A DNA stretch of 64,000 nucleotides, taken from NCBI RefSeq assembly GCF_002188635.1, contig NZ_NINX01000032.1, forward strand, positions 62,001 through 126,000. Direction: 5' to 3'. Within the stretch, counting starts at the first letter, position 1. Every line of letters starts with the position of its first letter. The stretch comes from Pigmentiphaga sp. NML030171. GTDB taxonomy: Bacteria > Pseudomonadota > Gammaproteobacteria > Burkholderiales > Burkholderiaceae_B. This document shows positions 25,720 through 62,396 of this stretch, one piece after another. Position numbers and translations under genes: made by a program. The notes under the pieces were generated by a model that was not told where the DNA came from, did no database searches, and saw only the letters and a program-made list of their open reading frames with translations.

Positions 25720-25971
25720 CCCCCCCCCTACGCCCTGCGGGCGCCCCCCAGGGGGCGATGCGGGTGGACCGGCGGAGCCGGATCCACCGCATCCTGGGTC
25801 TAGTACCCAATTCTTGGGTTGCGGCACCGATGCTATCGCTGGCTGCCAGCGATAGCATCGGTGATTCAGCCCAAGATCGTTTCCCTAGACCCAGGAAACC
25901 GCGGAGCTGGCTTTGCCAGTCCGCCAGTTTCGCCCCCTTTAGGGGGCCCGCGTCAGCGGGTAGGGGGTGGG
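25720..25971. repeat. Composite intergenic element: two inverted modules around a long palindrome
   Basis: Fills the gap between the convergent mscL and Nif3-like genes. A left module (25720-25799) and an inverted right module (about 25886-25971) share CCCCCTACG ends, a CCCC...GGGG hairpin and the GGCGGA/GCCGGATCC stem. Inner ends carry CCTGGGTCTAG and its inverse. Between them lies a perfect 19-bp inverted repeat with a 1-nt centre (25825-25843 with 25845-25863). A second full copy is at 57568-57814. Confidence 0.85.
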
Positions 25972-25978
25972 CTTCCCC

Positions 25979-26803
25979 TCAGACCGGGTTGTCGATGTCG
26001 ATGAAATCCACCCGGATGCCGAAGCGGTCGGCGATGGCGCGGCCCAGGGCCTGGACGCCGTAGCGTTCGGTGGCGTGGTGGCCGGCGGCCAGGAAGGCGG
26101 TGCCGGTTTCGCGGGCGAGGTGGACGGTGGGTTCGGAGATCTCGCCGGTGATGTAGGTCTGGGCGCCGGCGTCGATGGCGTCCTGGAGCATGCCCTGGGC
26201 CGCGCCGGTGCACCAGGCGATGCGGCCCGCGGGACGGGAGGGGTCGCCGATCAGCATGGGTTCGCGCTGCAGGCGCTGCGCGATGCGGGCCGCCAGGTCG
26301 CCCACCGTGGCCAGGCCGGGGGCCTGGCCCAGCCAGATCAGGCCGTCATGGCCGGCGGTCTGGGGCACGCCCTCCACGAAGTGGGGGGCCAGGCCCAGCA
26401 CCTCGGCCAGTTGTGCGTTGTTGCCCCACCGGGGGTGGGCATCCAGGGGCAGGTGGTAGGCGAACAGGTTCAGGTCATGGCCCAGGACCAGCGACAGGCG
26501 GGTGCGGCGGGTGCCCCGCACGCGGGGGTCCTCGTTCTTCCAGAACCAGCCGTGGTGGACCAGCAGGCCGTCCGCCCCGGCGGCGATGGCATGCCGAATG
26601 GCGGCCTCGGATGCGGTGACGGCGGCGATAATATGCCGGACCACGGGCCGTCCCTCGACCTGCAATCCGTTCGGACAGTAGTCGCGGAAGCGGGCGACCT
26701 GCAGTTCGGCGGCCAGCCAGGACGCGAGTTCCTCGGCGCTGACGCCGCCCGCGCCCCCCGCTGGTGCATGGGTTTGCGCTGAGGCCCGCTCGCCTGCGAT
26801 CAT
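25979..26803 (-). CDS. Nif3-like dinuclear metal-binding hexameric protein
   Basis: A 274-residue member of the YbgI/Nif3/DUF34 family. Metal-ligand motifs are seen in LLVHHGWFW (about 79-87) and AYHLPLDAHPRWGNN (about 114-128), and again near the C-terminus in GHHATERYG. The biochemical role is uncertain; links to GTP cyclohydrolase and metal trafficking have been proposed for the family. The ATG at 26803 has an AGGAG site; a TTG two codons upstream is less likely. Confidence 0.92.
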   Translation of the reverse strand: MIAGERASAQTHAPAGGAGGVSAEELASWLAAELQVARFRDYCPNGLQVEGRPVVRHIIAAVTASEAAIRHAIAAGADGLLVHHGWFWKNEDPRVRGTRRTRLSLVLGHDLNLFAYHLPLDAHPRWGNNAQLAEVLGLAPHFVEGVPQTAGHDGLIWLGQAPGLATVGDLAARIAQRLQREPMLIGDPSRPAGRIAWCTGAAQGMLQDAIDAGAQTYITGEISEPTVHLARETGTAFLAAGHHATERYGVQALGRAIADRFGIRVDFIDIDNPV

Positions 26804-26839
26804 TGTCAATCTCCTAAGCTAGGGAAAAGTATTTTGCAC

Positions 26840-28018
26840 ATGCGCCGACTATGGCTGATCTTTGCCCAGACCACCACCGTCTGTCTGGCCATTTTATTCA
26901 TCGTCGCCACCCTGCGCCCCGAATGGCTGCCACGCCGCGGGGGCCCGGGCAGCAATAACGCCATCGTCGTCCCGTTCTTCGAGGCCTCGCCCTCGCCGAC
27001 CGGCGAAGGCGGCGCGACCGCGTCCTATGCGGCGGCCACCCACAAGGCGGCGCCGGCCGTGGTGAACATCTTCACCAGCAAGGACACGCCCCAGCAGCCT
27101 GCCTATCCGTTCTCCGACGATCCGGTATTCCGGCGTTTCTTCGGCGAACCCGACACCAACCCCGAACCGGTCTCCAGCCTGGGATCGGGCGTCATCGTCA
27201 GCCCGGAAGGCTACATCCTGACCAACAACCATGTGATCGAGGCGGCGGACGAGATCGAAGTGGCGCTGGCCGATGGCCGCAAGGGCAAGGCCACCCTGGT
27301 CGGGTCCGATCCCGAGACCGACCTGGCGGTACTGAAGCTGGCGCTGCCCAACCTGCCCTCGGTCACCTTCGGCCGGGCCGAGGATCTCCAGGTGGGCGAC
27401 GTGGTGCTGGCCATCGGCAACCCGTTCGGCGTGGGCCAGACCACGACCATGGGCATCGTCTCGGCGCTGGGCCGCACCCACCTGGGCATCAACACCTTCG
27501 AGAACTTCATCCAGACCGACGCCGCCATCAACCCCGGCAATTCCGGGGGCGCGCTGATCGACGCCCAGGGCAACCTGGTCGGCATCAACACCGCCATCTA
27601 TTCCCGCTCGGGCGGCTCGCTGGGCATAGGCTTCGCGATCCCGGTCAGCACGGCGCGCCAGGTGATGGAGCAACTGATCACGACCGGCACGGTCACGCGG
27701 GGCTACATCGGCGTCGAGCCGCAGGACCTGACGGCCGAGCTGGCCGACGCCTTCAAGCTGTCGCGCAAGGAAGGCGTCATCATCGCCGGCGTGGTGCGCG
27801 GCGGGCCGGCGGCCAAGGCCGGCATACGCACGGGCGACATCGTGGTATCGGTCGCGGGCAAGGCCATCCTGGACACCACCACGATGCTGAACGCCATCGC
27901 CCAGTTGCCGCCGGGCGAGAAGGTGTCCATCAAGATCGTCCGTGGCGGACAGGAAATGGAAGCCAGCGTGACCATCGGCACGCGGCCCAAGCCCAGGCGC
28001 GAGGCCCAGCAACCCTGA
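26840..28018 (+). CDS. Periplasmic serine protease, DegS/DegQ type
   Basis: A 392-residue trypsin-like HtrA-family protease. An N-terminal membrane anchor (residues 1-27, no cleavage site) is followed by the protease domain with triad His131 (NNHVIEA), Asp161 (ETDLAVL) and Ser235 (NPGNSGGAL). A single PDZ domain (about 290-385) follows. One anchor plus one PDZ fits DegS-type sensors of envelope stress, though a general quality-control role is possible. The ATG at 26840 matches homologue starts; a TTG at 26834 is better spaced from AGGGA. Confidence 0.92.
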   Translation: MRRLWLIFAQTTTVCLAILFIVATLRPEWLPRRGGPGSNNAIVVPFFEASPSPTGEGGATASYAAATHKAAPAVVNIFTSKDTPQQPAYPFSDDPVFRRFFGEPDTNPEPVSSLGSGVIVSPEGYILTNNHVIEAADEIEVALADGRKGKATLVGSDPETDLAVLKLALPNLPSVTFGRAEDLQVGDVVLAIGNPFGVGQTTTMGIVSALGRTHLGINTFENFIQTDAAINPGNSGGALIDAQGNLVGINTAIYSRSGGSLGIGFAIPVSTARQVMEQLITTGTVTRGYIGVEPQDLTAELADAFKLSRKEGVIIAGVVRGGPAAKAGIRTGDIVVSVAGKAILDTTTMLNAIAQLPPGEKVSIKIVRGGQEMEASVTIGTRPKPRREAQQP

Positions 28019-28031
28019 CGCCGGCCCGGAC

Positions 28032-61085: not shown

Positions 61086-61872
61086 GGATGACTCCAAAGG
61101 CGATGGCGGCGATGGCCGCGAACGAAAACCACTGCAACGCATAACCGCGGTGCGTGTCTATATTGGTAGGCGGACCGGCCCAGTCGCGGACCAGCCCGTC
61201 CGGCGCTTCGCCGGTCTGCTCCAGCACGGCGGGCAGCAGGGCCACACCCGCGGCCTTGGCGTAGGTCTCCAGCTCCAGGTTCTGCACCCGGGGCGGCGCG
61301 CCGGGCCAGCCGGGCAGGCTCGATGCCAACTCGTCGCGCTTGCGCCCGCTCAACGCGGGCAGTTCGAACAGGCGCGGCACGCGCGGGACGAGTTCGCCCC
61401 GCACGGTGACCGGGCCGGTCGGCGTACGTACGGTGACCGGGGCGTCGGGCACGGGACGCGGCAGCCAGCCCCGCAGTACGGCCACCGCCTGCCGGCCCTC
61501 GTCGTCGAACGCCAGCGGCGTCACGACCCAGAAACCCGGCCGGCCGTCCGCCATGCGGTTGTCCAGCAGCACCGTCCGGTCGGCCAGCCAGTGGCCGGAG
61601 GCCTGGGCCGACCGCCAGGGGATCAGGTCCTGGGCGGTCCGCTCCGGCCCCAGGGCCAAGGGCGGCAAGCCGCGGCCCGCTTCCAGCGCGGCCAGGGTGG
61701 CGGCTTTTTCGTGAGCCCGCCCCAGTTGCCAGCGGCCCAGCGCGACCGTGACCGCCACGGTGGCGGCCAGCAGCACCAGGGCCAGCGGGACCGACCCACC
61801 GCCGGCATGCCTGCGGCCGGCCGGCGGGATCGGCGCCGGCATGCCGGCAGGATGGGGCGCCGAGCGTTTCAT
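61057..61872 (-). CDS. SURF1 family cytochrome oxidase assembly protein
   Basis: A 271-residue inner-membrane protein with an N-terminal and a C-terminal helix. Signature features: ALGRWQLGRAHEK after the first helix, VLLDNRMADGRPGFWVVTPL and, at the end, HRGYALQWFSFAAIAAIAFG. It helps haem A insertion into subunit I. The start at 61872 is chosen as the first Met giving the expected length; it may begin at a nearby internal Met. Confidence 0.92.
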   Translation of the reverse strand: MKRSAPHPAGMPAPIPPAGRRHAGGGSVPLALVLLAATVAVTVALGRWQLGRAHEKAATLAALEAGRGLPPLALGPERTAQDLIPWRSAQASGHWLADRTVLLDNRMADGRPGFWVVTPLAFDDEGRQAVAVLRGWLPRPVPDAPVTVRTPTGPVTVRGELVPRVPRLFELPALSGRKRDELASSLPGWPGAPPRVQNLELETYAKAAGVALLPAVLEQTGEAPDGLVRDWAGPPTNIDTHRGYALQWFSFAAIAAIAFGVILVRVLRPKR

Positions 61873-61935
61873 GCAGCGGAAGAAGCGCACGGCACCGCGC
61901 GGACTGCCATAATCGCGGGCTGGAGGAGAGATTCG

Positions 61936-62136
61936 ATGCGCATCATAGTAGGCATAGCCTTCGTCGGCATTCTGTACAGCTTGGGTTCCGCCCTGGTCTA
62001 CCTGATGAGGGACACCGGCAATAGCAAGCGTATGGTCTACGCGCTGACGGCCCGGATCGGCCTGTCGGTGCTGTTGTTCCTGTTCGTGCTGTTCGCCCAT
62101 TGGATGGGCTGGATCCAGAGCACCGGCCTGCGTTGA
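61936..62136 (+). CDS. Twin transmembrane protein (DUF2909-type)
   Basis: A 66-residue inner-membrane protein with two helices (IIVGIAFVGILYSLGSALVYL and ARIGLSVLLFLFVLFAHWMG). Small proteins of this kind are regularly found beside surf1 in betaproteobacterial cox clusters and are thought to aid oxidase assembly, without direct proof. GGAGGAG precedes the ATG. Divergent from surf1, 63 bp away. Confidence 0.85.
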   Translation: MRIIVGIAFVGILYSLGSALVYLMRDTGNSKRMVYALTARIGLSVLLFLFVLFAHWMGWIQSTGLR

Positions 62137-62317
62137 CCGGCCCGCGCCAGGCGGCGCGGCATCTGGACGGCCCCGGCGGCCCCGAAGGGCAGGCCCCTGT
62201 CCGGCTCACCGGAAGGCCCAGCCTGCTAGTGTGCCTGCCCCCACACACCCCGGGAAGCGGCCAACTGTCGCAGGCCGCAGAGAACATGTCCCCCTTCCGT
62301 CTCACGCCCCCCCCGAA

Positions 62318-62396
62318 CCAGGGCACAGCGGATCCGGCTCCGCCGGTCCGCCAGTGCCGCCCCCCTGGGGGGGCGCGCGTCAGCGCGTAGGGGGGG
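62318..62396. repeat. Single intergenic module after coxC
   Basis: Module with the CCCCCTACG end at 62396, 8 bp from the coxC stop, and the CCAGGGCAC inner end at the left. GCGGATCCGGC/GCCGGTCCGCC stem and a C/G hairpin as in the other copies. The gap 62137-62317 beside it holds nothing recognised. Confidence 0.85.

Follow-up and report, generated by a model that had tools for sequence, protein, structure and literature searches.

Miniature inverted-repeat transposable elements (MITEs) are non-coding, have inverted termini and vary in copy number between relatives. Together with the BREs of Bordetella and the repetitive extragenic palindromes (REPs), they are the closest described counterparts of a family of intergenic modules here investigated from a 64,000-nucleotide stretch of Pigmentiphaga sp. 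NML030171 (contig NZ_NINX01000032.1, positions 62,001 to 126,000; hereafter the window). The host, presumably a soil bacterium and here taken to belong to the Alcaligenaceae, has a genome of 5.86 Mb in 57 contigs, and the NIF3 protein encoded beside the first paired module of the window shares 97% identity with that of Pigmentiphaga kullae K24, followed by proteins from other Pigmentiphaga and then Bordetella. BREs are, according to PMC3110155, 75–91 bp long, intergenic and arranged in tandem arrays of variable copy number; in B. pertussis, two of them lie in the gap that separates lexA from a convergent gene. A count of stem-loop families in Bordetella is given in PMC2267715. Regarding REPs, PMC3733652 places most of those that lie between convergent genes at most 20 bp from both 3′ ends, and those between co-directional genes near the 3′ end of the upstream gene, and states that REPs tagged GTAG or CGTC often provide a TAG stop codon. 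For E. coli, a passage in PMC12306157 cites Liang et al. 2015 for ribosome stalling by REPs located at most 15 nt from a stop codon, and counts just 446 of 4,072 E. coli REPs at such a distance.

Results

Orientation of the modules relative to gene ends

The module is about 75 bp long. Between its CCCCCTAC end (the C-end) and its CCTGG inner end it has hairpins 1 to 3, of which the second is a C/G hairpin and the third is long and contains a bulged A. A profile seeded with the eight window copies and then iterated was applied at E ≤ 0.01 to a sample consisting of the window and 100 stretches of 20 kb (2.064 Mb, 35% of the genome), with the same sequence read backwards as the control. It found 128 copies in the sample and none in the control, which gave a single match at E ≤ 0.1. 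Over the whole genome, a core pattern matched 223 times compared to 0 in the backward control, and a looser version 228 times compared to 4. The 128 copies form 85 clusters, none with its midpoint within a predicted gene; two clusters without a flanking gene were left out of the gene-context counts (83 remain). Gene positions were taken from a gene caller, whose stops are more certain than its starts.

The outer C-ends are strongly polarized, with 81 of 108 pointing toward a gene 3′ end and 27 toward a 5′ end. A stop codon lies at most 25 nt upstream of 75 of the 108 (75/81 of those facing 3′ ends), inserts behind the C-end being allowed for, and the sense-oriented stop-proximal zone makes up 4.0% of the intergenic position-orientation space. 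The remaining six 3′-facing C-ends were inspected by eye: three follow a T-tract at a distance of 4 to 14 nt, one sits behind a short missed reading frame, one, of the leader type, directly behind a TAG, and one behind module debris. Among the 58 outermost inner ends, 18 face 3′ ends (4 at ≤25 nt) and 40 face 5′ ends (2 at ≤25 nt). For solo modules the C-end lies at a 3′ end in 45/55 cases (null 30.5, standard deviation (sd) 3.4, maximum 43 in 20,000 draws) and at most 25 nt from a stop in 36/55 (null 10.7, sd 2.6, maximum 21 in 20,000 draws), and in co-directional regions it points toward the 3′ end of the upstream gene in 38/47 (p = 2.5e-5). A sequence-only reading of the window had proposed a function or an insertion preference tied to transcript ends. 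This is supported by the sample-wide comparison with flanking gene ends and random intergenic positions, as orientation is non-random (solos 38/47 and 36/55) and the pattern is repeated in other genera. We regard both the modules and their polarity as firm observations.

Genes bearing a module end in TAG or TAA more often than other gap-facing genes (35/53 compared to 239/653, p = 5e-5), and in nine sample genes the element itself supplies the stop codon, eight times at the same place in the first loop. With 120 nt from the stop as the limit, T-tract terminators were found at 8/81 module-bearing 3′ ends compared to 55/779 others; with the whole gap (up to 400 nt) included, the counts were 16/81 and 70/779. 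On these counts, the anchor is better called the stop codon than a visible terminator.

Of the 268 genomes examined from the family, 64 have the core pattern, and of the 43 genera, 6. Polarity outside Pigmentiphaga was assessed in 60 clusters of genera g2, g8, g9 and g10, representing the first-listed 66 loci (not a random choice) with six overlapping ones collapsed, by looking for a frame of at least 100 codons with its stop between 45 nt before and 20 nt inside a module end. Of these clusters, 50 had such a stop at the C-end, compared to 8 with one at the inner end (p = 4e-15). By group, the counts at C-end and inner end were 25/28 and 5 for g8 and g9, 6/6 and 0 for the first g2 set, 12/15 and 0 for genome G026 (g2), and 7/11 and 3 for G106 (g10), which was the weakest. 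The 3′-end rule thus extends beyond Pigmentiphaga, and as the polarity is common to related genera, the repeats are either inserted at gene ends or retained there.

Module copies in the window

All eight modules that the sequence-only reading had placed at six sites were recovered (Table 1), and within the window the profile matched only these eight, with E values from 2e-16 to 2e-14. The sequence features ascribed to them held to different degrees. The CCTGG inner end closes 8/8 copies; the shared C-end reads CCCCCTACGC in seven, while the copy at 25891–25967 has CCCCCTACCC; and six carry the core GGACCGGCNNNGCCGGATCC unaltered, while the other two have CTGG...CCAG, a compensated change. The polarity described for the window was also found, with seven of eight C-ends facing a gene 3′ end or terminator (MscL, NIF3, hisA, MlaC, SCO1, COX3, and one hairpin with T-tract) and the tat copy, facing the TatB start, as the exception. 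At hisA, the reading frame enters the module and ends within its first loop.

Table 1 Modules and associated features in the window (coordinates from the first base of the window).
Feature	Coordinates	Strand	Remarks
Module, GATGC subtype, left half of double	25724..25797	+	C-end behind MscL stop (TAG 25716–25718)
Spacer of first double	25798..25890		Double forms one long inverted repeat, inner hairpin 18–19 bp
Module, GAAAC subtype, right half of double	25891..25967	-	C-end and leader GGGGAAGCCCAC behind NIF3 stop
Solo module, GGCAC subtype	34287..34363	+	C-end toward TatB start
Solo module, GATGC subtype, hisA 3′ end	36745..36819	-	Loop TGA is the hisA stop codon
Solo module, GGCAC subtype	44623..44695	-	C-run immediately behind MlaC stop TGA
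Intrinsic-terminator-like hairpin and T-tract	57535..57562	+	5 nt ahead of the C-run of the next module; by eye
Module, AATGC variant, left half of double	57568..57641	+	Profile match
Spacer of second double	57642..57734		From sequence
Module, GAAAC subtype, right half of double	57735..57810	-	C-end behind SCO1 stop
Solo module, GGCAC subtype	62318..62394	-	C-end behind COX3 stop

Base pairing within the module

Two alignments were used: A1, with 77 of the 83 distinct full-length copies of the host (six aberrant ones omitted; 73–78 bp long) and 92 rows when other genera are included, and A2, with all 83 copies and 15 from other genera (98 rows). In A2, 97.6% of cells pair, slightly fewer than the 98.2% in A1; with the partners slid, the figure is 35–48%. 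Changes on both sides of a pair occur in 245 cells compared to 81.6 in shuffles (sd 9.9), with one-sided changes in 12 cells, the loop-side pair 30–37 being excluded. Neither the number of pairs with both-sided change (10, reached by 103/500 shuffles) nor that of further pair types (25, reached by 358/500) was above the shuffles. As module copies are related by copying, the alignment cells do not count as independent events. When copies were folded singly as RNA, four from the window gave z-scores of -2.0 to -3.8, and one from g9 gave -1.2. No T-run follows the module hairpins in A1 or A2. A known RNA family was rejected as the identity of the module, as the one match of Rfam covariance models to reach gathering score in the window was a tRNA, with two sub-threshold matches at 25700–25990 (E 0.29 and 0.81).

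Cluster architecture and nested repeats

The 85 clusters comprise 55 solos, 23 '+-' pairs with the C-ends outward, one '--' pair, no '-+' pair and six larger clusters. Doubles usually combine two subtypes, most frequently GATGC and GAAAC, and one that was folded formed a single long hairpin. The proposal that doubles occur where transcripts converge applies to both doubles of the window and to 11/21 in the sample, compared to 139/1278 of intergenic regions (p = 4e-6), and is hence a tendency and no rule. Divergent regions are avoided by clusters (4/83, p = 3e-5).

Direct tandem modules are represented in the host genome by the single '--' pair among 24 two-copy clusters, and arrays are found in G106 and G097 from other genera (G106:C1:231873-232087 and 237273-237561; G097:C212:19936-20187), with a BRE-like layout as in Bordetella. 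A second profile, grown from the BRE-like repeat of locus L284 (described below) and an insert seen in the congener G196, located BRE-like inserts within hairpin 2 of 11/128 host modules, plus five separate matches. Modules of the leader type come after partial modules truncated in hairpin 3. Solitary BRE-type repeats also occur in the host sample, e.g. at G000:C12:51438-51499 (-) and C10:71928-71990 (+), the second followed by a hairpin-like stretch; the Bordetella repeat family and the module family thus coexist in this genome.

Site occupancy in related genomes

Within the genus, the number of core copies ranges from 0 (G189) to 252 (G190). A module is present behind hisA in 7/11 genus genomes, and the same seven have a CCCCCTACGC end behind MlaC, five of them as whole modules; G197 and G195 have at this site hairpin 1 and a BRE-like insert, and no hairpin 3. 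Neither site holds an element in G198, G192, G193 and G189, the hisA–hisF gap measuring 4 nt in G192 and G193, and no module was detected at E ≤ 0.01 in syntenic 80-kb stretches of G193, G192 and G189. Subtypes and tails vary among the seven occupied genomes. In G190 the junctions at MlaC and hisA are unlike those of its relatives, with the C-end still at the gene end, which probably reflects separate, recurrent insertions. The other differences among the seven are most likely explained by exchange of interiors between copies.

At the MscL–NIF3 site, the double of the window is also found in P. kullae; L132 has one half of it, L133 the opposite subtype order and an extra partial copy, and L134–L137 none. 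The otherwise empty site of L134 (Pigmentiphaga sp. NML080357) keeps GTAGGGGGTGGGCTTCCCC behind NIF3, matching the leader and the CCCCCTAC end; this may be what is left of a lost element, whose TAG would serve as the NIF3 stop. At the SCO1 site of G196, the double and SCO1 are separated by a 347-codon open frame that the window genome lacks at this site, and the C-end is located directly behind the stop of this frame. By eye, the frame looks like a tctC-type receptor gene.

Sequence context of C-ends facing gene starts

The 27 start-facing C-ends were compared to background. The 8 nt before the C-run are poor in C (24/216, 11.1% compared to 30.7%, p = 1e-11), and TA[AG] occurs at most 12 nt away in 10/27 (background 11%, p = 4e-4), with no enrichment of TGA (3/27, background 10.5%). 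This C-poor, TA[AG]-rich flank looks like a target preference. Predicted gene starts lie at most 25 nt away in 12/27 (3.1 expected, p = 2e-5), and on the strand of the gene such C-ends, including that at 34287–34363, read GTAGGGGG, which might act as a ribosome binding site.

Composition was rejected as the only cause of placement, as weighting for C-poor sequence assigns just 3.2% to the stop zone compared to 4.0% unweighted, so that something else places the C-ends behind stops. No target duplication was apparent, the mean longest direct flank match being 3.29 for 21 doubles (null 3.08, sd 0.15) and 3.45 for 55 solos (null 3.53, sd 0.11). A split terminator, with the element in the terminator loop, was likewise unsupported by inverted flank matches (doubles 3.52, null 3.85; solos 3.51, null 3.50).

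Comparison with known repeat families

In L284, from a 4.0-Mb g8 genome, the place next to lexA is occupied by an 82-bp repeat (1.9 copies), whose C-run end follows the stop codon of lexA at a distance of 17 nt. From this position and the two copies, and not from published BRE letters, we infer that it is BRE locus 3. It resembles the module in length, in the order of C-run, hairpin, C/G hairpin and third hairpin, in being intergenic and from the Alcaligenaceae, and in its C-run end behind a stop codon. However, the module profile gave no match up to E 10 in L275–L292, including both L284 repeats, and hairpins 1 and 3 differ, so identity with BREs, as represented by L284, was rejected on sequence. 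BREs are described as tandem arrays, whereas in the host inverted pairs of modules are commoner than direct ones; direct arrays of modules do occur in G106 and G097.

The GTAG- and CGTC-tagged REPs share with the module the location at gene 3′ ends and the supply of a stop codon. They are, in contrast, single palindromes of 20–40 bp with a tag, whereas the module has three hairpins, 75 bp and polarity of one end in a genome without RAYT. The GTAG tag is not reproduced, as the tetranucleotide reads CTAC into the module, and 9/92 rows (g9 copies) have CCCGAAGC. E. coli REPs are similarly palindromes close behind stop codons, and in their case an effect on translation has been demonstrated. MITEs and modules are alike in being non-coding, in the inverted termini of doubles (23 '+-', 0 '-+') and in variable copy number; unlike MITEs, many modules are solo and no target duplication was seen. 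Nor was a parent transposon found, the genes between modules 320–4000 bp apart having been listed by position and not by name. In the literature, BRE was the sole repeat of similar type found, but the family may have been noted before under a different name, for instance among the Bordetella stem-loop families of PMC2267715. The module family appears to be new, while the 3′-end rule itself is already known for REPs.

Search for a mobilizing enzyme

The Y1_Tnp domain (Y1/RAYT) had no match in the host genome or in eight congeners with at least 31 core copies, while 5/14 control genomes matched. It is present in 64/268 genomes of the family. Presence of Y1_Tnp and copy number were compared by eye, without computation: G105 and G106 (46 and 124 copies) lack the domain, and some copy-bearing g2 and g9 genomes have it. 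No module is present at four Y1 loci in g2 and g9, one of which is cut by a contig end, and mobilization by RAYT was rejected for the host genome. In L324 (G102; 216–836 and 1599–1697), a Y1-transposase gene adjoins a large tandem array with 117-base steps, which matches neither the module nor the BRE profile and looks like a separate REP-type system.

Discussion

We put at about even probability the view that the modules are non-autonomous palindromic elements of the REP/BRE/MITE type, inserted at gene ends in a specific orientation by a trans-acting enzyme, and that such targeted insertion is the cause of the polarity. The enzyme would place the element in one orientation, with the C-end joined to DNA that is poor in C and richer in A+T, immediately adjacent to coding sequence and mostly behind a stop codon, and would do so without target duplication. 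Placed copies would then be transcribed as a triple hairpin in the 3′ untranslated region (UTR), persist across species, and swap interiors with other copies or receive further palindromes in their hairpins. Lineage-specific amplification, from 0 to 252 core copies in one genus, argues for insertion, as do the polarity and anchoring, the target-like flank of the start-facing C-ends, the probable recurrent insertions in G190, the outward-facing pairs, the nesting of BRE-like repeats and the flanks without direct repeats. Speculatively, naked RNA behind the last ribosome could give rise to R-loops that expose the coding strand, which would account for the stop codon.

Several observations weigh against targeted insertion. 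No fresh insertion was seen, as G196, 96% identical in a test stretch of 2 kb, has each of the six window sites filled too. Every one of the seven genomes with hisA at least 91% identical holds an element at both hisA and MlaC, which fits selection as well. The deviating junctions of G190 could stem from local deletions after one insertion. Rare letters, defined as seen at most twice in the 83 host rows, with two weak pairs and the loops of the first two hairpins excluded, are fewer in stems (27/3981) than in unpaired columns (25/1577, p = 0.003), again compatible with selection. The 3.2% obtained with C-poor weighting leaves the targeting unexplained, and neither the search of the copy-rich congeners nor the Y1 loci revealed an enzyme connected to the modules.

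The main alternative, which we consider possible but less likely than not, is a selected RNA function: modules would land widely, and selection would retain sense-oriented 3′-UTR hairpins behind stops, where they tune translation termination or mRNA decay. The anchoring to stop codons and the polarity agree with this, as do the retention of the element at both sites in 7/7 genomes despite changes of subtype and tail, the nine genes using its stop codon, the excess of both-sided changes that preserve pairing, and the E. coli REP precedent cited in the passage of PMC12306157. However, in the 98 rows G-U cells (11) are about as common as A-C mismatches (10), two loop-side pairs excluded, and as G-U is no commoner than A-C the RNA sense strand is not singled out. 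A stop-codon function is moreover inapplicable to the start-facing C-ends, whose excess near predicted starts and target-like C-poor flanks point away from selection.

A further reading is more doubtful still. In it, a RAYT-independent mobile element would be guided behind stop codons in one orientation, for instance by an R-loop-exposed coding strand, and would then become part of the gene, giving it a stop codon and a 3′-UTR triple hairpin, with further palindromic elements inserting in the hairpins.

That the modules are transcription terminators is very unlikely. They are strong GC hairpins behind stops, and doubles are enriched between convergent genes; but no T-tract follows the hairpins, the element also lies within the hisA–hisF pair and other co-directional pairs, and module-bearing 3′ ends have T-tract terminators no less often than others. 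That the modules are REPIN/REP elements mobilized by a RAYT tyrosine transposase, as the inverted palindrome pairs and the 3′-end location would suggest, is slightly less likely again, being already weakened by the missing Y1_Tnp in the host and its congeners and by the loss of the GTAG/CTAC letters in g9 copies. The least probable identity, to which we give very little credence, is that with the BREs of PMC3110155, which share the hairpin plan, the approximate length, the bacterial family and the intergenic location, but whose L284 representative differs in sequence.

Whether palindromic repeats come to lie behind stop codons by insertion or by function is still debated, and the module family makes this question testable, as it combines high copy number, one polar end, compensatory subtypes, empty congener sites and the lack of a RAYT, and obeys one rule in several genera. 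If insertion is the true cause, a hitherto undescribed recombinase, targeting the ends of open reading frames, would be implied. If selection is, a 3′-UTR control element would be common to many genes, 75 such ends having been counted in one third of the genome.

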